Source of the DNA: a virus | Direction: 5' to 3' (one strand) | IMG/VR virus record: IMGVR_UViG_3300017739_000040 | Location: 1 to 35,314 of that record | Length of the DNA stretch: 35,314 nucleotides | The notes under the pieces: model-generated | Database searches by the model: none | Seen by the model: the letters and a program-made list of their open reading frames with translations, nothing else | What the model was told of the DNA's origin: nothing | Program-made: the position numbers and the translations under genes | Shown here: in pieces, positions 19,326 through 28,194 of the stretch | How the letters are laid out: the number at the start of each line of letters is the position of its first letter | Numbering within the stretch: the stretch's first letter is position 1

Positions 19326-19721
19326 TTATTTATCAAATTTTGACAACAACAAGTCCAGTTCCTTAGAGCTTTGTTGTAAAATTTTTTTCACATGTGTGTT
19401 TTCTTGCAACTCAGAAGCCTTGTCCGCCGCATCCGCAAGAAGCTCTATTCTGGTAAGATCAAAATTTGTTAGGGTACCTTGAACTTTTTGCACAGGCTCG
19501 GGCTTCACTTCATCATCGCAATCTCTCCTCGCAACGTATCGAACCGCATACTCAACGCTTTTTGGTATCGGCTTTTCGTTGCGCTCGTAATAACAGTACA
19601 TACGATGGCTCAGGCCAAGCATGCTGGCAAAAGCCGCTTGGCTCTTTTGCATGCTTACGCGCTCACGCTCAAGATCGTAACCTTCCCACATGCTGTAGTA
19701 GGAATTTGATTTTTTAGGCAT
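19326..19721 (-). CDS. XRE-family (Cro/CI-type) DNA-binding protein
   Basis: 131 residues from the ATG at 19721, chosen because GGAGGAGG lies three bases before it. A helix-turn-helix occupies about residues 20-60 (VSMQKSQAAFASMLGLSHRM, then YCYYERNEKPIPKSVEYAVR). The C-terminal half is a charged helix ending KELDLLLSKFDK, probably for dimerisation. It is the second gene after a promoter carrying the GCAAT-N-ATTGC palindrome and could control that palindrome, including its own promoter. This pairing is inference. Confidence 0.75.
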   Translation of the reverse strand: MPKKSNSYYSMWEGYDLERERVSMQKSQAAFASMLGLSHRMYCYYERNEKPIPKSVEYAVRYVARRDCDDEVKPEPVQKVQGTLTNFDLTRIELLADAADKASELQENTHVKKILQQSSKELDLLLSKFDK

Positions 19722-19956
19722 GAACCTCCTCCAGCATTCCATGACGTATCATATCTTGTGTAAAATTTTTTAGCGTGTCGTATCTGACGGGCTTACCGCT
19801 CCAATCACAAGCAAGAGCCGCAGCGGTTTTCATCCAAGCATCCTCATCACGGTCAGGGTACCTGTGAACATCACGCCATGCCTCAATAAACGCCTCTGGT
19901 GTGTTTGCGGTGAAACCAACAGGCTCCCCGCCGATGTGTAGTAAGTAATTAGCCAT
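19714..19956 (-). CDS. Small protein of unknown function, first gene of late operon
   Basis: 80 residues, Trp-rich (EAWRDVHRYPDRDEDAWMKT, ALACDWSGKPV). AAAAGGAGG lies 6 bases before the ATG, one of the strongest ribosome sites in the window. It overlaps the XRE gene by 8 bases. No family recognised. Its place at the head of the late operon suggests a regulatory or host-takeover role, which is speculative. Confidence 0.6.
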   Translation of the reverse strand: MANYLLHIGGEPVGFTANTPEAFIEAWRDVHRYPDRDEDAWMKTAAALACDWSGKPVRYDTLKNFTQDMIRHGMLEEVHA

Positions 19957-19983: not shown

Positions 19984-20012
19984 TATGTAGGGCAATGATT
20001 GCGATAAATCAA
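19984..20012 (-). promoter_or_regulatory. Late-operon promoter Pa with internal operator palindrome
   Basis: On the minus strand: -35 TTGATT (20007-20012), 17-base spacer, -10 TACATA (19984-19989). The spacer holds a perfect inverted repeat GCAAT-C-ATTGC (19992-20002). It would drive 19956 leftwards through the head genes to the terminator at 6.0 kb. Confidence 0.7.
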
Positions 20013-20171: not shown

Positions 20172-20195
20172 AAAAACCCGCGACTAGCGCGGGTT
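20172..20195 (-). terminator. Intrinsic terminator after the amidoligase gene
   Basis: An 8-bp GC-rich stem (20175-20182 with 20188-20195), loop of 5, followed on the minus strand by TTTTT. It lies 21 bases beyond the stop codon. An upstream perfect 10-bp palindrome, GCGATCAGTT-C-AACTGATCGC (20213-20233), overlaps the stop codon and may stabilise the transcript end. Confidence 0.85.
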
Positions 20196-20216: not shown

Positions 20217-21380
20217 TCAGTTCAACTGATCGCGCCGTGTGTTGAAGTATTCAAATAACTGATCATCTAATCCCGCCCATATAGATGAAACGCCACGCTG
20301 ATTTTCTGGTAACAAACCGCCATTGTCGCGCCGTTGTATGGTTATTGATTGCGGTATTATGTAACCATTCAAATCGTGTTCGCCATTGCTATCACCATAG
20401 CTATGACCATATGCCTGTTGATTGTTGCACACTACAGTTTGTTCGCCATGATCACGGCGCATTTCAGATACACGCGCTCTAATTGTTTGCGCTGTCCATC
20501 CGGTTGCATTCATTAGATCGCGTGTAGTCGCGCCGTTGTCGCGTCTCATTAGTGACCACATAACCGCAATGCGCGAACCGTTGCGATATGGTAATGCTGG
20601 CGTTTCAACTGTCGTTGGCGTGTTAGCGTTATAGTCAACACGATAGCGGTCAGAATGGCGAAACATGGCATCTATTAATAATGACCAAGCTTTAAGCTTA
20701 TCAACTGACAGTGTGGCTTGATGCTGGCGAAATTCAATTGTGCCACGCGCCCATGTTTGCATGTTTACCGCCACAAACTTGCCACCCAATAGCGACGCCA
20801 TATCACTTGCAGATTGTGCGGACATAAACTGATCATGTTGCCTACCATCTGGCGCGATATGGGCGATGCTATTGCAATAGCGGTTGTGGCGACGTGATTG
20901 TGGCAAGATTGAATTGACCGCGTTTTGATGTTCCGCATAACGCACCGCAACATCTTTTGCTAAAACCAATGGCATAACGTCACAACAATTGATATCGGCG
21001 GGCATGAAAAACTCGCCACGATCACGCATAAGTTGTTTTGATTGCCGCCAATAGTCGGCCGTTGTCATATCTTTGATGGCGCGGTTGCCAATGTGGATAT
21101 GACCACCAAGGTCACGCCGTGATACGGTGCCGCCATTGCGCTCAATAAATGTGAATAATTCGCCAAGGTCATAATCGGCACCGCCATATAAACCCATTGG
21201 CATTGGTGGTGTTATTATCTCGCAATCAACAACTGGTGTACCATCTGGCACAACTTTCACCCAATCAAAACCGGCATCATTTAATATGCGCCGCCATGTT
21301 GCATATGAACCACCACCGGCAATTTCAAGCTCATAACCCACTGTCAAAAATGTATCGTCTAAAATGTAAGGCGTTGTCAT
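20217..21380 (-). CDS. Amidoligase (COOH-NH2 ligase) with C-terminal winged helix
   Basis: 387 residues. The amidoligase part covers about 1-245: GYELEIAGGG (15-24), CEIITPP (53-59), SRRDLGGHIHIG (87-98) and GTIEFRQHQATLS (213-225). These match the Amidoligase_2 family, relatives of glutamine synthetase that form amide bonds using ATP. Residues about 269-318 (RIAVMWSLMRRDNGATTRDL, NATGWTAQTIRARVSEM) look like a winged helix-turn-helix, an unusual addition. Related operons pair such ligases with gamma-glutamylcyclotransferase-like proteins, as here. The substrate is unknown. Own promoter region and terminator. Confidence 0.8.
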   Translation of the reverse strand: MTTPYILDDTFLTVGYELEIAGGGSYATWRRILNDAGFDWVKVVPDGTPVVDCEIITPPMPMGLYGGADYDLGELFTFIERNGGTVSRRDLGGHIHIGNRAIKDMTTADYWRQSKQLMRDRGEFFMPADINCCDVMPLVLAKDVAVRYAEHQNAVNSILPQSRRHNRYCNSIAHIAPDGRQHDQFMSAQSASDMASLLGGKFVAVNMQTWARGTIEFRQHQATLSVDKLKAWSLLIDAMFRHSDRYRVDYNANTPTTVETPALPYRNGSRIAVMWSLMRRDNGATTRDLMNATGWTAQTIRARVSEMRRDHGEQTVVCNNQQAYGHSYGDSNGEHDLNGYIIPQSITIQRRDNGGLLPENQRGVSSIWAGLDDQLFEYFNTRRDQLN

Positions 21381-21416
21381 TGTTTTGTTCCTATTGTTTT
21401 GTTGTCGTTGTCATAA

Positions 21417-21444
21417 AGTATATACCTATGGGCAACCATTGCAA
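21417..21444 (-). promoter_or_regulatory. Weak promoter candidate Pb with operator-like GCAATGGTTGC
   Basis: The operator-like 11-mer lies at 21432-21442 on the minus strand, about 50 bases before the amidoligase start. A possible -10 is TATACT (21417-21422), with TTGCAA (21439-21444) as -35 at 16 bases. The geometry differs from the other four copies, so this may be a diverged or differently used site. Confidence 0.4.
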
Positions 21445-21453
21445 TACATAAAA

Positions 21454-21467
21454 CGCACAATTGTGCG
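21454..21467. promoter_or_regulatory. Perfect 14-bp palindrome CGCACAATTGTGCG
   Basis: Seen directly in the amidoligase upstream region. It shares the ACAATTGT core with the palindrome at 21572-21585 but has different arms. Candidate operator. Confidence 0.45.
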
Positions 21468-21571
21468 GTTTATTTCATTTAATAGACGATTTACCGGCAG
21501 CGATTATTGTGCAGCATCGCGTTTTTTTTGGCAGAAATCCGGCAAAATCCCGGGGCCTGCCGAGGGTTTTA

Positions 21572-21585
21572 CGAACAATTGTTCG
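21572..21585. promoter_or_regulatory. Perfect 14-bp palindrome CGAACAATTGTTCG
   Basis: Followed on the plus strand by GGG. Near copies CGAACAATTGTACGGG occur at 22654 and 23250, each in the same position of a linker between terminator and promoter. The GAAC-N4-GTTC form resembles the LexA/SOS box of Gram-positive bacteria. Confidence 0.5.
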
Positions 21586-21701
21586 GGTTGTGGCCCGGCG
21601 CTGCTGCAAAAACCCGAACCCGAACCCCGACCCGGTGCAGCCCGGAACCCGAAAACCCCGAACAATTCCCGAATCACCCGAGTGCTGCCCGAACCCCGGG
21701 C

Positions 21702-21735
21702 AAAAAAAATGGGCCGCAGCACCCGGCTGCAGCCC
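21702..21735 (-). terminator. Intrinsic terminator after the GGCT-like gene
   Basis: A 10-bp stem with one G-U wobble (21711-21720 with 21726-21735), 5-base loop, then a run of eight T on the minus strand. It lies 28 bases past the stop codon. Confidence 0.85.
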
Positions 21736-21762
21736 GATTCACCCGAACAATTCAGCCCGAGT

Positions 21763-22164
21763 CTATGCCCACTCCTCTTCCTCCTCCCAGTCACGGGCAT
21801 AGTACAGTTCAGTTGCATCAAGCCCGAAGTCCCGATACCCCTGTTGGATAACCCCGAGGTAGAAGTCCGATGGTTTAGCGTACCCGTTTGAGTTCATCAG
21901 GTACGTCATCATCCCGCAGATCTTTTCTTTCCTGTACAGCCGAGGCCAGCCTTCGTAATGATCTAGCGCCTTTTCACATTCGGGCGTGATCTCCCAGATA
22001 CCCGCAGGCACCATTTCGTCACGAGGTGCAGGTTCGATATCGGCTACGCCCCGAAAGACCAGCCGCCAACTCGGTAGGTAGATAGCCCCGAGCGGTTTGG
22101 CTCGGGGGCATCTTGAAGCCATTTGGCTTTTGTTCAGGTTTGACCCATATGCAAGGTACAACAT
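21763..22164 (-). CDS. Gamma-glutamylcyclotransferase-like (GGCT/AIG2) protein
   Basis: 133 residues. The substrate-loop motif YGSNLNKSQM is at residues 6-15 and the likely catalytic Glu is in DHYEGWPRLYRK (E71), as in the GGCT/AIG2 superfamily. A late acidic tail reads DWEEEEEWA. Family members cleave or cyclise gamma-glutamyl or similar amide-linked groups. In this phage it is encoded immediately before the amidoligase operon, which suggests opposite or successive steps on the same conjugate. The start overlaps the upstream stop (TAATG). Confidence 0.82.
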   Translation of the reverse strand: MLYLAYGSNLNKSQMASRCPRAKPLGAIYLPSWRLVFRGVADIEPAPRDEMVPAGIWEITPECEKALDHYEGWPRLYRKEKICGMMTYLMNSNGYAKPSDFYLGVIQQGYRDFGLDATELYYARDWEEEEEWA

Positions 22165-22520
22165 TACGCCGCTTCCTCACGCAAGAAGTCTTCAATAAGG
22201 TCAAGCGCATCAGCTACCAGCGCCTTATTGAGTTGCTCCAGCTTACGCTTTGGGATCGTCTCTGTGATGATCTGCTGTGCATAACGGTAAGAACAATTTG
22301 CATCCGTCGCCGTATACTTGCAGAACTCTTGAATAACAAACATCCGCATCTTGCGTTCGTTGTCGTGATTGGTCTTCAGAAACGCTACGTTGTCTTGGTA
22401 GTGTTCGTAGCCTAGATAAGAGCCGTCCAACCAGCAACGGAACAACCGCCGCGTTACATGGTTCACATTGAGCAGGTCGCCCGCTAAGTCTCTTTTGATT
22501 CTATCTGCTTTTTCAGCCAT
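22164..22520 (-). CDS. Unknown helical protein, partner of GGCT-like gene
   Basis: 118 residues, mostly charged helices (MAEKADRIKRDLAGDLLNVN, then KRKLEQLNKALVADALDLIE). A strong GGAGGG ribosome site and the shared promoter Pc precede it. No known domain. Two cysteines (FRCWL, FCKYT) and a third (NCSYRY) are spread out. It is co-transcribed and translationally coupled with the GGCT-like gene, so it may work with it. Confidence 0.6.
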   Translation of the reverse strand: MAEKADRIKRDLAGDLLNVNHVTRRLFRCWLDGSYLGYEHYQDNVAFLKTNHDNERKMRMFVIQEFCKYTATDANCSYRYAQQIITETIPKRKLEQLNKALVADALDLIEDFLREEAA

Positions 22521-22549: not shown

Positions 22550-22578
22550 TATATAAGCAATCATTGCACAACAGTCAA
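22550..22578 (-). promoter_or_regulatory. Promoter Pc with internal operator palindrome
   Basis: -35 TTGACT (22573-22578), 17-base spacer, -10 TATATA (22550-22555). The spacer contains a perfect palindrome, GCAAT-G-ATTGC (22557-22567). Downstream comes the conserved leader ATGCTTAACGAAGGAG, whose end is the ribosome site of the 118-residue gene. Confidence 0.8.
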
Positions 22579-22653
22579 CCATAAAAATGGGAAAAAATAA
22601 AAAAAACTTTGAACCCTCTCGGAACTCCAGGCGCAGCAGAAACACGAACAATT

Positions 22654-22669
22654 GTACGGGAAGACTCCC
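22654..22669. promoter_or_regulatory. Linker motif CGAACAATTGTACGGG
   Basis: Same 16-mer as at 23250-23265 and one base different from the 21572 palindrome. It lies between the terminator and promoter Pc in the 214-base gap 22521-22734. Confidence 0.5.
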
Positions 22670-22682
22670 AGGCGCTACGGGC

Positions 22683-22709
22683 AAAAAAAATCCCCGGACT
22701 CAGCCGGGG
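22683..22709 (-). terminator. Intrinsic terminator after the small membrane protein gene
   Basis: A 6-bp all-GC stem (22692-22697 with 22704-22709), loop of 6, followed on the minus strand by ATTTTTTTT. It lies 26 bases past the stop codon. Confidence 0.87.
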
Positions 22710-22734
22710 CAGTTGGAACAAATTGTTCTGGTTA

Positions 22735-22962
22735 CTAGCTGCGAGCCAGTGCGACCCCGAGTCCCATGGTCAGGGCAAAGATCGTAATGATTCCCGAATG
22801 AATGTAGAAGGCCACTGTGTCGATTGGTTCTACGGCTGTCATCATGCAGACCCCGACAAACCCAACCCCGATTAACGCACTTCCTAACTTGCTCATTCTC
22901 CTTCTCCTCAAAGCACTTCCTAATCTACGCATGTTCTCTCTCCTGTTCGATACCCATTTCAT
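22735..22962 (-). CDS. Small two-helix membrane protein with three in-frame starts, holin-like
   Basis: 75 residues from the ATG at 22962, which overlaps the upstream stop (TAATG). Two further in-frame ATGs lie at 22932 and 22896, each preceded by its own purine-rich ribosome site. The shorter forms are 65 and 53 residues. The N-terminal extension is very basic (MRRLGSALRRRR before MSKLGSALIG), and LGSAL occurs twice from a small local duplication. Two hydrophobic segments follow (ALIGVGFVGVCMMTAV and IITIFALTMGLGVAL). Dual-start basic extensions are known from lambda-type holin/antiholin pairs, so that is a possible role. Confidence 0.55.
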   Translation of the reverse strand: MKWVSNRRENMRRLGSALRRRRMSKLGSALIGVGFVGVCMMTAVEPIDTVAFYIHSGIITIFALTMGLGVALARS

Positions 22963-23126
22963 TATACTGCCTGCCCTTCAATGTAGTTCCACGCACTTTC
23001 ATACGCATGATCCCAGTTTAAAACCTCACCAATCTCAACCCAGTAATCAGCTAGGCTTCTTGCCTCGTGATCGAAGCAAGGTCTGTGATCCATTGGCAAT
23101 TCGCCAGAAAAAAATAGAGGGTTCAT
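22962..23126 (-). CDS. Small acidic protein of unknown function
   Basis: 54 residues from the ATG at 23126, preferred because AAGGAG stands five bases before it and the promoter's leader ends there. The product begins MNPLFFSGELPMDHRPCFDH and ends AYESAWNYIEGQAV. No known domain. First gene of the operon driven by Pd and translationally coupled to the small membrane protein. Confidence 0.6.
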   Translation of the reverse strand: MNPLFFSGELPMDHRPCFDHEARSLADYWVEIGEVLNWDHAYESAWNYIEGQAV

Positions 23127-23153
23127 TTCGTTCTCCTTCGTTAAGCACACTTA

Positions 23154-23183
23154 TATATAAGCAACTATTGCAGATGGTGTCAA
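23154..23183 (-). promoter_or_regulatory. Promoter Pd with internal operator
   Basis: -35 TTGACA (23178-23183), 18-base spacer (17 if TTATAT is taken as -10), -10 TATATA (23154-23159). The spacer holds GCAATAGTTGC (23161-23171), one mismatch from a perfect palindrome. Leader GTGCTTAACGAAGGAG follows. Confidence 0.82.
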
Positions 23184-23249
23184 CAAGAAAAAGAACTATT
23201 TGATACTTTTTTTCACGAGCTGTGCTGCAGCATGCTGCGCTACGGGATA

Positions 23250-23265
23250 CGAACAATTGTACGGG
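23250..23265. promoter_or_regulatory. Linker motif CGAACAATTGTACGGG
   Basis: Identical to the motif at 22654-22669. It is followed on the plus strand by TTGCGCTGCAAAAAA leading into the terminator, closely similar to the layout near 21572. Confidence 0.5.
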
Positions 23266-23274
23266 TTGCGCTGC

Positions 23275-23309
23275 AAAAAAGACCCGGCAACTCAGGCGGC
23301 TGCCGGGTC
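23275..23309 (-). terminator. Intrinsic terminator downstream of terminase small subunit
   Basis: A perfect 9-bp stem (23281-23289 with 23301-23309), 11-base loop, then six T on the minus strand. It closes the operon coming from the replication side. Confidence 0.87.
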
Positions 23310-23506
23310 AGTCTAAGGGAGGAGCTTTAATGATGGCCCGAGTCGCAGCCCGATGTCAAGCCCGACACCCCGAAAACCCCGAAGCCCGAAGGCCGAGCAG
23401 CTCGGAAAGCCCGACTCCGGGCCATCCCGAACCCGAACAATTCCCGAAAACGCCAGGTGTCGCCGTCCCCTCCCCCCGCGCGGGGAGTTTACGAACAATT
23501 AACCAG

Positions 23507-24034
23507 TTATTGGTTATCTTCATCTATATCTTGTGGCTCATGTTCAATGATCTCTACATCTGGTGTTACGTTCACCATGCGTGACTCGGCTAACCTCTTG
23601 AACTCGTCCAACTTCTTAGCGATATCCTCCTTGGATGCGGCTGTAATATCCTCCTTCACAACGTGCTGCTTGTTGATAAGTAGCCCCGATGCCTTCAAAC
23701 GTAGCTCTTCAGCACGAATAGCCTCACTGAACTTACCCATCTCCCAAGCCTGATCCCGAAGCCTTTTTAAATCCCGAACAGACTTGTCAACACTTACCCC
23801 GAACTTAGCTTGTGCCTCTAGTCGCATCTCTTGTAGGCGTTCCGCTACCACTGGGTTACGCAACAGCCTCACGGCTGACACCGAGGCGTTCTTGTATCCA
23901 GCCTGTCGTGCAGCTTCTGTCTGCGTCATATCTTTGTGCAGATAGTTGTTCAGGAAGTCCTGTTGTTGCGGCTTGAGTTTCTTTAGCCCTGCCATACGCA
24001 TTTCTTTTGGCAGATCTTCACCGACCTTTGGCAT
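23507..24034 (-). CDS. terS: Terminase small subunit
   Basis: 175 residues. The N-terminal DNA-binding part reads LKPQQQDFLNNYLHKDMTQT, EAARQAGYKNASVSA and RLLRNPVVAERL, the Terminase_2 pattern (helix-turn-helix in which AGY is typical). A helical oligomerisation region and an acidic C-terminus (EIIEHEPQDIDEDNQ) follow. It recognises the packaging start and feeds DNA to the large subunit. Unusually, it is 5.6 kb away from terL. The start directly abuts the upstream zinc-finger gene. Confidence 0.85.
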   Translation of the reverse strand: MPKVGEDLPKEMRMAGLKKLKPQQQDFLNNYLHKDMTQTEAARQAGYKNASVSAVRLLRNPVVAERLQEMRLEAQAKFGVSVDKSVRDLKRLRDQAWEMGKFSEAIRAEELRLKASGLLINKQHVVKEDITAASKEDIAKKLDEFKRLAESRMVNVTPDVEIIEHEPQDIDEDNQ

Positions 24035-25089: not shown

Positions 25090-25545
25090 TCATGCCTCCC
25101 ATCTAAACTTTAATTGTTCGTATATCGACTGGTGTTCCCGTTTTCTGCTGGAACTACCCCACGGATTAGACCGCGTTGATACTTCACCCATTATTTTCCA
25201 ACCTGCTCCGCGTAAAGAAGAACCCGACTCAGATTGCAATGTATACGTCACCATGCGCTTTCCGCCCATTTGTTGCCAGACTCGCCAGCACCTCCCGTAC
25301 AAAAACGAACAAGTGTTCTTCGGCGCTGCGTCCAACACACAAACCCGTAACACTTCAGCCGTGAACCCATCATCCAGCATACGGGCAACTGGCCTTCCAA
25401 CCATGGCAACCCCGACAAGATCATCGTCATACACAGCACCGAGCGCAAACCGATACCCGATTTTCACGGGTTTGTTATGCCTGTGGTGTTGATCAACGAA
25501 ATTGTTCGCATCCTTGATCGTTATGGGAAACAACTCCAACTTCAT
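25090..25545 (-). CDS. XF1762-family protein (GNAT-like)
   Basis: 151 residues. HHRHNKPVKIGYRFALGAVY near the N-terminus, GVAMVGRPVARMLDDG, EVLRVCVLDAAPKNTCSFLY and TYTLQSESGSSLRGAGWK match a phage and plasmid family known as XF1762, distantly like GNAT acyltransferases. Substrate unknown. It overlaps the HNH gene by 4 bases, so the two are probably coupled. The family often travels with DNA-modification or nuclease genes. Confidence 0.7.
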   Translation of the reverse strand: MKLELFPITIKDANNFVDQHHRHNKPVKIGYRFALGAVYDDDLVGVAMVGRPVARMLDDGFTAEVLRVCVLDAAPKNTCSFLYGRCWRVWQQMGGKRMVTYTLQSESGSSLRGAGWKIMGEVSTRSNPWGSSSRKREHQSIYEQLKFRWEA

Positions 25546-26363
25546 CCGATAAACCTGTTTGACTTCTTTAGGTTAAACTCACGGGTGACAATTTGTAAAT
25601 TATGGTGAACGTGCAGCCCAGACCCTTCGCGTCCGTTTCGATCATTAAAATGCAACGGGAATATGTGATCAACGTGCCATGTATTCTTTCCATCACGTTT
25701 ATTTAATCTGTAAGCATCACTATACACTGCATTGATTTTAAAATGATTAGCCCATTTAGGCGTTGCGCGTTCTTCGCGCTTCTTACCTTCGTATCTCTTT
25801 TTTGACACACGAATAGCTTCACGCCGAATATTGTCCAGATTATACTTATACGCCATGTCATATGAATTTGTTCGGGTTGTCAGCACAAACAGCCGGGCAT
25901 TTGCATCTGCGGCTGGCTCATCACGCTTCAAGTGGTGCATTAGGTCATAGCACTCAGGCTGCACTCGCAACTTCACCTTAAACACATTTCTGTACAACTG
26001 CTTCTGATCTGTTCGCACAAATAACATCTCGCAACTGATGTCATGCGTGTTACCGTACAATGAACTACCGTGCTTATCCGTATCTTTGACCAGCATCTTG
26101 TAGAACACATCAGGCTCATCTCGCCCCACCTTGGATGCCTCGACCAAGCCCCCCACTACTGGGATATACTCGTGATTAATGTGTTTATTTATCTTTGAAC
26201 CTTCTTTGTGGTGCGTCTTATAATTTGCATAATAATCATCACGCGCAATCACATATTCTTCTGGCAGTTTATCCACTGCATCCCTGCGTTCAACAAACCA
26301 TTCAACAATACGCTCATGCCCCTTAATATTTGGGGCGATTGTAATACCTGCTTTCCTACCCAT
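25542..26363 (-). CDS. HNH endonuclease
   Basis: 273 residues. The C-terminal domain has WHVDHIFPLHFNDRNGREGS, then HVHHNLQIVTREFNLKKSNR, with the DH and N/H metal-binding residues of HNH nucleases. The N-terminal 200 residues (FVERRDAVDKLPEEYVIARD and others) are charged and lack a known domain. It overlaps the methyltransferase gene by 8 bases. Could be a packaging, homing or restriction nuclease; the target is unknown. Confidence 0.8.
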   Translation of the reverse strand: MGRKAGITIAPNIKGHERIVEWFVERRDAVDKLPEEYVIARDDYYANYKTHHKEGSKINKHINHEYIPVVGGLVEASKVGRDEPDVFYKMLVKDTDKHGSSLYGNTHDISCEMLFVRTDQKQLYRNVFKVKLRVQPECYDLMHHLKRDEPAADANARLFVLTTRTNSYDMAYKYNLDNIRREAIRVSKKRYEGKKREERATPKWANHFKINAVYSDAYRLNKRDGKNTWHVDHIFPLHFNDRNGREGSGLHVHHNLQIVTREFNLKKSNRFIG

Positions 26364-27492
26364 CTCTCATGCCCTTCAACAAATGACAGATAACATCCAC
26401 TGTCCAACCATTGCCCAGCATCTTGTAGCGTTGCGTGTTGCTCACATGCGCTGTGTAGCCATCAGGAACTGTCTGCAATCTTTCGCACTCAGTAACTGTT
26501 AGCTTACGCCACATCAGCCGCATATCATCGCTGTACGCATCCTCGTAACGGCCTTCCGGCAATGGCGACAACAACGTGTCCTTTTCCACTGTAGATAGAC
26601 AACGTGACTTGTCCACCTGATGCACTTCTAAGCACTGCGTGATCGGAACGTCCTTGTCGTTATCTTTACGGACACCATCTTTTATACGGCGACCAACGAT
26701 AGACGCTGGGTTTAGAAGAACTTTAGGCTCTAGGTTCCCACCACTAGCCGCGCACAAACTTGGTGCCTTGCCATCGGGATGATACACCCTACGGTTGTAA
26801 CCGTGACCCTTCAAATCAGCTTCGCCAGCCAGCACCAAACCAGAACAATTTTGATCTGACTCTATATCGAACACCAACTGGCGTCGGCGCTTTTCAAAAT
26901 ATGACTTCAGATTACCGCCCTTAAAATAATTCGCGTCAATGCAATGTGACTTCTCGCGGTCAACGAATCCATCTTCCAAAATATCTTTCAGAACAATTCT
27001 TCGGTTTTCTGGCAACGACCTGACGGGAATATTTGTCCAGTACAGCCGATCCCTATTCTGTGCAGATACCAAATTGCTGTTAATCCGAACTGGCTTAACC
27101 CCAAGATGCTCAGAGATGATATCTTGAAACTCCTGCTTCATGTTTACGTTTTCCAGTAGGAACCACTTTGGCTTTGACTCCTTCAATACCCGAACAAATT
27201 CAAAAAACAATTTGCTGCGCGGGTCATCAAAATTAAGCCGTTTGCCAGCCCACGAAAATCCTTGGCACGGACTGCCCCCGATCAATAGATCAATCGGCTC
27301 GCCCTCAAACAACTCAGGCCAAATCACATCTCTTACATCACCGATATGCACTGTGTCTGGATAATTAGCCTTTGCCACCTTCATGGCATACTTGTCCACC
27401 TCTGATGCCCAATAGTTAGAAACAGCAAAGCCGCACCGCTCAAGAGCGATGCGACCGCAAGACATGCCATCAAATAGACTTATGACATTCAT
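26356..27492 (-). CDS. C5-cytosine DNA methyltransferase
   Basis: 378 residues. Conserved motifs in order: FDGMSCGR (motif I, residues 7-14), GGSPCQGFSW with the catalytic Cys (motif IV, about 73-81), LLENV (VI, about 112-116), QNRDRLYWTN (VIII, about 145-154), and a C-terminal MLGNGWTVDV (X). A variable target-recognition region lies between. It would methylate phage DNA at cytosine, probably against host restriction. The neighbouring HNH gene raises the possibility of a linked nuclease. Recognition sequence cannot be read from the protein. Confidence 0.9.
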   Translation of the reverse strand: MNVISLFDGMSCGRIALERCGFAVSNYWASEVDKYAMKVAKANYPDTVHIGDVRDVIWPELFEGEPIDLLIGGSPCQGFSWAGKRLNFDDPRSKLFFEFVRVLKESKPKWFLLENVNMKQEFQDIISEHLGVKPVRINSNLVSAQNRDRLYWTNIPVRSLPENRRIVLKDILEDGFVDREKSHCIDANYFKGGNLKSYFEKRRRQLVFDIESDQNCSGLVLAGEADLKGHGYNRRVYHPDGKAPSLCAASGGNLEPKVLLNPASIVGRRIKDGVRKDNDKDVPITQCLEVHQVDKSRCLSTVEKDTLLSPLPEGRYEDAYSDDMRLMWRKLTVTECERLQTVPDGYTAHVSNTQRYKMLGNGWTVDVICHLLKGMRDG

Positions 27493-27689: not shown

Positions 27690-27855
27690 AGACAACTCCT
27701 TCCATAAACTTGGTGTTGAGAATTTTGAACCGTTCCTTCAAATGTGAAGTGTCGCGGCCTTCCCACTCAGCATCATTAATCTCTGATGCCAACCTCATCA
27801 TTTGATCCTGTACGGACATCAGGCGATCATCTTGTTGACTAACATCATCTAACAT
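27673..27855 (-). CDS. Small helical protein, unknown
   Basis: 60 residues, acidic and probably helical (MLDDVSQQDDRLMSVQDQMM, HLKERFKILNTKF). The start overlaps the previous stop by one base (TAATG). No family recognised. Confidence 0.55.
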   Translation of the reverse strand: MLDDVSQQDDRLMSVQDQMMRLASEINDAEWEGRDTSHLKERFKILNTKFMEGVVYEPNF

Positions 27856-28133
27856 TACCCGCGCTCCTCTACATCAAAGTTAAACAGAGAATTTACAGAG
27901 TTAGCCCTGTCAATCAGCTTGTGCATATCACCGACCCACACATACTCAGAACCTTCAAACTGCATTGTTTCACCAACGCTAGACGCGATTTCCTTCAAGT
28001 CTTTTACAGCTTGGATCATGTCTGGTGATAAGTGACCAATCATTTTGTCACGCGCTTTTGAAGCCTTTTCGCGCTCTTTTCTGTGATGCTCGATTAGCTC
28101 TTCGTGCGTCATTTCTTTTGTATCTTTAGACAT
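27855..28133 (-). CDS. Unknown protein, first gene of Pe operon
   Basis: 92 residues from the ATG at 28133 after GAGGT. Charged helix first (TKEMTHEELIEHHRKEREKA), then SPDMIQAVKDLKEIASSVGE and GSEYVWVGDMHKLIDRANSV. The longer frame begins at ATGCTTAAC, which lies only about 11 bases past the -10 of promoter Pe, so the internal start is better supported. Function unknown. Confidence 0.6.
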   Translation of the reverse strand: MSKDTKEMTHEELIEHHRKEREKASKARDKMIGHLSPDMIQAVKDLKEIASSVGETMQFEGSEYVWVGDMHKLIDRANSVNSLFNFDVEERG

Positions 28134-28165
28134 TTTTACCTCGTTTGTTGTTAAGCATTTATTCG

Positions 28166-28194
28166 TATATAGCAACTATTGCTATGTTAGTCAA
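28166..28194 (-). promoter_or_regulatory. Promoter Pe with internal operator
   Basis: -35 TTGACT (28189-28194), 17-base spacer, -10 TATATA (28166-28171). The spacer begins and ends around GCAATAGTTGC (28172-28182). The leader ATGCTTAAC follows, as in Pc and Pd. It drives the small-gene and methyltransferase group. Confidence 0.82.

Follow-up and report, generated by a model that had tools for sequence, protein, structure and literature searches.

A predicted amidoligase bearing a winged helix and its GGCT-like neighbour in marine phages

The virus record studied here (the window, that is, the whole stretch of 35,314 bases) encodes on its minus strand a ligase of the Amidoligase_2 family that bears a winged helix of the DUF3489 type and, upstream of it, a protein resembling gamma-glutamyl cyclotransferases (GGCT). 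The two genes constitute a real, conserved and probably enzymatic pair. In the explanation that we prefer, to which we give a probability of about one half, the two proteins are the maker and the trimmer of one gamma-glutamyl-type amide, and the winged helix is a recognition or regulatory module. The amidoligase/GGCT pairing itself is already known from LUZ24/RIO-1-type cassettes. As far as our searches show, the clade of winged-helix ligases is new and corresponds to a widespread, apparently undescribed branch of the family; no description of the fused form was found in the literature searched.

Gene organization and linkage of the pair

The features of the window that are relevant to the pair are the following.

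20217..21380, minus strand: Amidoligase_2 ligase with winged helix, 387 aa (Pfam, PHROGs, AlphaFold2 model)
20607..21359, minus strand: glutamine-synthetase-like catalytic core of the ligase, about residues 8-258 (conservation, fold comparison)
20421..20597, minus strand: DUF3489-type winged helix of the ligase, residues 262-320, with helices 270-278, 286-293 and 297-311 and strand 317-319 (PF11994, models)
20223..20264, minus strand: C-terminal helix of the ligase, residues 373-386, common to unfused sister ligases (AlphaFold2 model, motif)
20175..20195, minus strand: terminator-like hairpin after the ligase (prediction)
21711..21735, minus strand: terminator-like hairpin after GGCT (prediction)
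21763..22164, minus strand: predicted GGCT/AIG2-like gamma-glutamyl cyclotransferase, 133 aa, with YGSN loop and E71 (Pfam, PHROGs, alignments)
22164..22520, minus strand: 118-aa protein with no assigned function, the stop of which overlaps the GGCT start (family counts)
19992..20002, minus strand: operator GCAAYNATTGC upstream of the next gene, 80 aa (motif scan)
21432..21442, minus strand: GCAAYNATTGC operator of the ligase gene, 51 nt ahead of its ATG, overlapping a promoter-like site at 21444-21417 (motif scan)
22557..22567, minus strand: operator of the unit formed by the 118-aa gene and GGCT, lying within the TTGACT-TATATA spacer (motif scan)
23161..23171, minus strand: operator GCAAYNATTGC upstream of 22962-23150 (motif scan)
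28172..28182, minus strand: operator GCAAYNATTGC near the start of 27855-28175 (motif scan)

Both reading frames of the first-pass annotation, 20217-21380 (387 aa) and 21763-22164 (133 aa), were recovered on the minus strand. Along this strand are successively found a promoter with its operator, the 118-aa gene, GGCT, a hairpin, a second promoter with an operator, the ligase gene and another hairpin. Because each gene is followed by a predicted terminator and a promoter-like site of its own precedes the ligase, ligase and GGCT are separate transcription units and not one operon. The pair had been described as standing under a common operator family. As regards the operators this description holds, since GCAAYNATTGC is located upstream of both units, the copy at 22557..22567 being 36 nt upstream of the 118-aa gene that precedes GGCT; it does not extend to a single operon. 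In the whole window, the motif gives 7 strand-matches at 5 places for 0.30 expected, and none of 100 shuffles reached 7. Four of the five operators sit in a 17-18-nt spacer (as read by eye) between a hexamer of the TTGAC- or TTGAT-type and TATATA or TACATA. The ligase operator overlaps the promoter-like TTGCAA-16-TATACT, although overall the promoter scan returned 1 site, fewer than in shuffles (4.8).

The 133-aa protein matches GGACT/AIG2 of Pfam (PF06094, 26.6 bits for a cut-off of 22.8) and the gamma-glutamyl cyclotransferases of PHROGs (E 1.6e-24). In an alignment of nine sequences, Y6, G7, E71 and G72 are invariant and the YGSN loop is kept. The protein also aligns with human GGCT, E71, the Glu of its LDxYEG motif, falling at a position at which entry 3cry has Q, unlike the other human entries. 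The Glu at this position is presumably the catalytic residue. The GGCT-like character initially proposed for this neighbour is thus borne out by both profile collections, by the loop and by the alignment of E71.

The gene-neighbourhood survey called for by the first-pass annotation was carried out, and the partnership with GGCT held. An alignment-based scan of IMG/VR, from which the best 80 of 220 ligase relatives were kept, gave together with a first scan 79 distinct contigs, 7 repeat loci from the same contigs being dropped from the ligase-locus counts. In this set (best 80 of 220 plus first scan), GGCT was found in 64 of the 79 contigs, always on the same strand as the ligase and upstream of it, at a distance of 217 to 5,317 nt. 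The 15 other contigs of the set keep 1 to 5,217 nt of upstream sequence, so that GGCT may simply have been cut off. A scan with GGCT only gave 80 loci, 56 of which contain the ligase when counted with an iterated HMM that includes hits from the counted loci themselves, and 54 when counted with an HMM made only from the 50-row ligase alignment described below. When the flank on both sides is taken into account, the ligase is present in 42/55 loci having more than 1.5 kb, in 28/29 having more than 3 kb and in 19/19 having more than 4.5 kb. Control loci (n=80), fetched by a marine-phage peptide deformylase, contained 0 ligase, 0 GGCT and 0 winged helix, the sequence compared being 458 kb for the controls and 641 kb for the GGCT loci. 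GGCT is also found near Amidoligase_2 in loci L013 and L015, whereas a Porphyromonas phage locus (L014) has Amidoligase_2 without an annotated GGCT nearby. The ligase-GGCT linkage is real, though not universal in the Amidoligase_2 family. Its presence in all 19 well-covered loci suggests that the two proteins serve one process, even without a shared operon.

The family of the 118-aa protein is represented in 9/79 ligase loci (best 80 of 220 relatives plus first scan), 21/78 GGCT loci and 0/80 control loci. A Mom-like gene of the window (25090-25545) was rejected as a part of the module, being present in 5/40 records (the window, L003-L005 and L006) that are close relatives only. The terminases closest to that of the window (55-63% identity) belong to the Pelagibacter phages HTVC027P and HTVC023P and to phages 023Pt_psg01 and DSL-LC04. 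No amidoligase is annotated between TerS and TerL in HTVC027P, 023Pt_psg01 and DSL-LC04, and none was detected in the four proteins of these phages that were scanned.

Domains and predicted structure of the ligase

The ligase matches Amidoligase_2 (PF12224) with 41.2 bits (cut-off 22, E 2e-10) and the amidoligases of PHROGs (E 2e-8), and its residues 266-317 match DUF3489 (PF11994) with 36.6 bits (cut-off 29.5, E 5e-9). Among 50 relatives at 38-95% identity, 49 match Amidoligase_2 and 49 match DUF3489 (E <= 0.01). Hence, these domain matches are not due to chance. The AlphaFold2 model of the ligase (mean pLDDT 87.1, pTM 0.73) was built on an alignment of 50 full-length rows, which were picked from the window together with the 79 distinct contigs. 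Structure prediction, one of the checks suggested at first, gave a glutamine-synthetase-like (GS-like) fold and a winged-helix fold.

With VIA-align, the core of the model is comparable to glutamine synthetases over about 206 residues (best Z 11.9, rmsd 3.2-3.5 A). The top rows of Foldseek are bifunctional glutathione synthetase (3ln7), YbdK (1r8g) and glutamine synthetases, none of them at E <= 0.001, and the best named matches among the viral models of BFVD are phage amidoligases. A sequence search of the PDB returned no relative with a solved structure. The ligase core has the fold of the GS-fold gamma-glutamyl ligases (GS, YbdK/GCS2, GmaS) but displays no detectable sequence match to them in the PDB. 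On most GS chains the alignments with the ligase begin only around residue 109-150 and thus leave the N-terminal domain of GS unmatched.

Several residues of the core are conserved in nearly all of the 50 relatives: E17 (49), E19 (49), H94 (50), H96 (47), K201 (50), E216 (50) and R218 (50). Residues E17, E19, H94, H96, E216 and R218 fit what we take to be the acidic/His/Arg active-site pattern of Amidoligase_2, and the pattern noticed in the first-pass annotation is therefore conserved, in 47-50 of the 50 relatives. In two phage Amidoligase_2 proteins, gp40 of Bacillus phage 031MP004 and that of Heliusvirales PV036456, the core is likewise GS-like and displays the E-x-E, H-x-H and EFR motifs. 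With 288 and 315 aa, these two proteins have Amidoligase_2 as their only Pfam match, unlike the window ligase. The literature searched contained no assayed Amidoligase_2 enzyme, nor one with an assigned reaction.

A winged helix had been proposed at residues 269-318, and the DUF3489 match at 266-317, above cut-off, agrees with this proposal. When the C-terminal 130 residues are modelled alone (pLDDT 75.6), the nearest solved folds are winged helices (NiaR, NolR, BirA, MarR) with Z 6.4-7.3, a range in which a common arrangement can suffice. The models contain three helices and a wing; beyond the first strand of the wing, residues 322-334 have a pLDDT below 50. The net charge of the domain is +4 in the window, with a mean of +1.3 per about 59 residues across the family, and R301, E306 and R308 of the recognition helix are invariant across 50 relatives. 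Because the mean charge is near neutral and the recognition helix is unusually invariant, DNA binding is not implied by the presence of the domain. The invariant residues are as compatible with a fixed interface as with a contact to DNA.

The winged helix folds as such in the models but is not the plain C-terminal tail that had been supposed. The ligase ends with a helix having the motif GhD-x5-aromatic-x3-R-x3-L. This motif, written post hoc from the tails, is found in 42/50 rows of the alignment, 14/28 further fused rows and 9/12 unfused sisters, and in 1/12 other unfused rows and 0/1016 other ORFs. An HMM built on this helix proved too weak, with 1/24 unfused ligases above 5 bits. Since the motif is common to fused ligases and to their unfused sisters, the winged helix fills an internal slot, located before the conserved C-terminal helix. 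The distance from the EFR motif to this helix is 115-142 residues in the unfused sisters, compared with 146-162 in the fused ligases.

DUF3489 also occurs in stand-alone genes. Five proteobacterial plasmid records were matched, of which three are annotated as such and one lies beside DUF2924. These plasmid proteins have the same domain as the ligase but are encoded by separate small genes, with no ligase. DUF3489 is listed among the families linked to a SCOP superfamily (PMC4520260). In 50,697 phage records, the winged helix found no match at E <= 0.1; DUF3489-like phage proteins do occur in PHROGs and BFVD.

The clade of fused ligases

When 75 catalytic domains are placed on a tree, the winged-helix ligases group in a single clade (SH-aLRT 100), and the state changes once. 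Within this clade, 48 rows carry the domain, 1 truncated row is of unknown state and no row is known to be without it. The tree results from a short search, on a sampling that began from the window's own genes; it took 24 of the 50 rows of the alignment, leaving out 5 repeat loci as well as short or truncated ORFs. The ligase ancestor of this large marine-phage clade gained the winged helix once and kept it.

Among the loci fetched with GGCT, the winged helix is present in 29 of the 54 ligase ORFs of at least 250 aa. Unfused ligases are mostly located directly upstream of GGCT. Fused ligases are found downstream of GGCT or on the other strand, some of them a few kb away. In bacterial genomes, the window ligase used as a single-sequence query found no match. 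A search of bacterial MAGs with the 50-row alignment gave 12 ligase loci, with a winged helix in 0/12 and GGCT in 0/12.

Possible functions of the pair

In the maker and trimmer explanation that we prefer, the phage would encode a two-enzyme module dedicated to one amide bond, probably of the gamma-glutamyl type. The GS-fold ligase would activate a carboxylate with ATP and join it to an amine, and the GGCT-type protein would trim or reverse the amide bond, releasing 5-oxoproline. The ancestral ligase of the marine-phage clade would have gained the DUF3489 winged helix between the core and the C-terminal helix. There, the winged helix would most likely hold the enzyme on a macromolecule (a nucleic acid or a bound protein) or sense the ligase's own promoter, in a BirA-like manner. 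Catalysis, gamma-glutamyl chemistry and the opposite action of the two proteins are what we infer; the target of the ligase and the partner bound by the winged helix are guesses. Several other explanations may be envisaged.

By analogy with known phages, it is possible that the pair represents a minimal peptidoglycan-modification cassette. The two enzymes would modify peptide links in the wall of the host cell, for instance to block superinfection, as has been proposed for phiEco32, RIO-1, PSA-HP1 and LUZ24, and the winged helix would do no more than recruit or stabilise. As in the window, Amidoligase_2 and GGCT are both held by the cassette of LUZ24, UFV-P2, RIO-1, PSA-HP1 and phiEco32. The cassettes of UFV-P2 (PMC3890496) and PSA-HP1 (PMC5498523) contain both families and further enzymes, the authors proposing a cell-wall role for PSA-HP1 among others, and cell-wall modification or superinfection exclusion has been put forward more than once (PMC5498523, PMC11945000, PMC10580990, PMC11318856). 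The cassettes of LUZ24 and UFV-P2 also hold a COOH-NH2 ligase, a class II amidotransferase and an ATP-grasp enzyme. Three of the papers proposing a cell-wall role (PMC11945000, PMC10580990, PMC11318856), or their reference lists, lean on Iyer et al. 2009. A Hydrolase_2 cell-wall hydrolase (one representative tested), in a cluster found in 13/80 GGCT loci, also argues for such a role. However, COOH-NH2 ligase was found in 0/24 module records including the window, and class II glutamine amidotransferase in 0/40 and 0/27 records, the records being often fragments and the LUZ24 positive control being detected in both cases. A full LUZ24-type cassette is thus rejected as regards these two enzymes. 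With the ATP-grasp profile PF08443, 0/25 records matched, but the annotated RimK gene of LUZ24 itself escaped this profile as well. Moreover, in BLASTP the LUZ24 amidoligase has no significant match to the window ligase (E 0.11), the GGCT proteins matching at E 0.001, and one would not expect an enzyme of the cell wall to carry a domain of the DNA-binding type.

A regulatory role of the ligase itself, of the trigger enzyme kind, appears doubtful. As BirA does for the biotin operon, the winged helix would bind the ligase operator and repress the ligase gene at low substrate; in ligase-repressors of the BirA type, a reaction intermediate serves as the co-repressor. BirA associates an amide-forming ligase and a winged helix on one chain, as do the predicted domains of the window ligase, and BirA winged helices match the isolated C-terminal model at Z 6.5-7.0, on a par with NiaR, NolR and MarR. 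Unlike in the window ligase, the winged helix of BirA is N-terminal (residues 2-65 of the chain), and the catalytic fold of BirA is not GS-like. The ligase gene has its own operator and terminator, and the uncoupling of fused ligases from GGCT, next to which the unfused ones mostly stand, would fit a regulatory change. Nevertheless, the operator is common to other promoters, and relatives of an HTH_3 protein of the window (19326-19742) are found in 55/79 ligase loci (best 80 of 220 relatives plus first scan). As these operators are used by other genes too and this protein is so frequent, their usual repressor may be the HTH_3 protein rather than the ligase. Comparison of upstream palindromes with the recognition helices of the ligase and of the HTH_3 protein gave no pointer to either as the reader. 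The low net charge of the winged helix also stands against repression by the ligase.

It is unlikely that the pair is devoted to free small molecules, the ligase making a gamma-glutamyl amine (a glutathione-like compound or a gamma-glutamylated polyamine) that GGCT would recycle during infection. GGCTs act on free gamma-glutamyl compounds, and YbdK and bifunctional glutathione synthetase are among the best-ranked solved folds in Foldseek, both of which favour such a metabolism. But the scan of window proteins brought up no recognisable precursor or export gene, and the winged helix would be left without a role.

It also seems improbable that the winged helix is a mere structural or oligomerisation element, the sisters carrying another stretch of similar length in the slot. 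The slot architecture, with its conserved C-terminal helix, and a recognition helix that is invariant rather than diversified would agree with such an element. Against it, no row of the clade is known without the domain (48 with, 1 truncated), and in the 50 relatives the winged helix is conserved as the core or more, with a mean column entropy of 1.07 bits versus 1.53 bits. This retention, together with a conservation at least equal to that of the core, suggests that the winged helix is more than filling.

Very unlikely, finally, is a DNA-directed amide writer and eraser, in which the winged helix would put the ligase on phage or host DNA, a gamma-glutamyl group would be attached to an amine of either the DNA or a protein bound to it, and GGCT would remove this group as 5-oxoproline.

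Were the DNA-directed mechanism true, it would amount to reversible glutamylation by a system that carries its own targeting domain and is widespread in marine phages. The winged helix fixed in this clade provides a handle on a family that occurs across phages: finding its binding partner may reveal the target of the ligase.

Neighbours of the ligase and GGCT genes

These families were located near the pair in the window, or in the 80 loci fetched by GGCT alone (GGCT loci):

window 23507-24034 and GGCT loci L095-L172: putative terminase small subunit-like family, so named from its own sequence
window 22164-22520: 118-aa protein, overlapping the GGCT gene
L102:5193-5630 and related: cell-wall hydrolase (Hydrolase_2)
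L114:1138-2316(-): PAPS-reductase-like protein (PF01507)

The putative terminase family is found in the flanks of 53 of the 80 GGCT loci, and the ligase/GGCT pair likewise lies near a terminase in two loci of Heliusvirales (L012 and L013). The family of the 118-aa protein, which had no match in a Pfam scan, was present in 21 of 78 GGCT loci as against none of the 80 control loci fetched by marine-phage peptide deformylase. The clusters that include the hydrolase and the PAPS-reductase-like protein are held by 13/80 and 8/80 GGCT loci, respectively.

Palindromes and repeats

One family of promoters in the window carries the palindrome GCAAYNATTGC within or adjoining the -35/-10 spacer:

window 19992, 21432, 22557, 23161 and 28172: GCAAYNATTGC promoter family
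window 19326-19742: HTH_3 protein, candidate regulator of this family

Furthermore, CCCGAACAATT / AATTGTTCGGG are repeated in the intergenic stretches 21540-21760, 22640-22790 and 23248-23500 of the window. In many relatives, recurring palindromes, either GAACAATTGTTC or GCACAATTGTGC, are located upstream of the ligase at a distance of about 80-250 nt. These repeats and palindromes possibly constitute a second family of operators or of terminators.

Mom-like gene and methyltransferase

Two further genes of the window lie near each other:

window 25090-25545: Mom-like protein for DNA modification, matching phrog_1384 at E 1e-36
window 26356-27492: DNA methyltransferase

Together, they probably form an anti-restriction set, separate from the ligase module.
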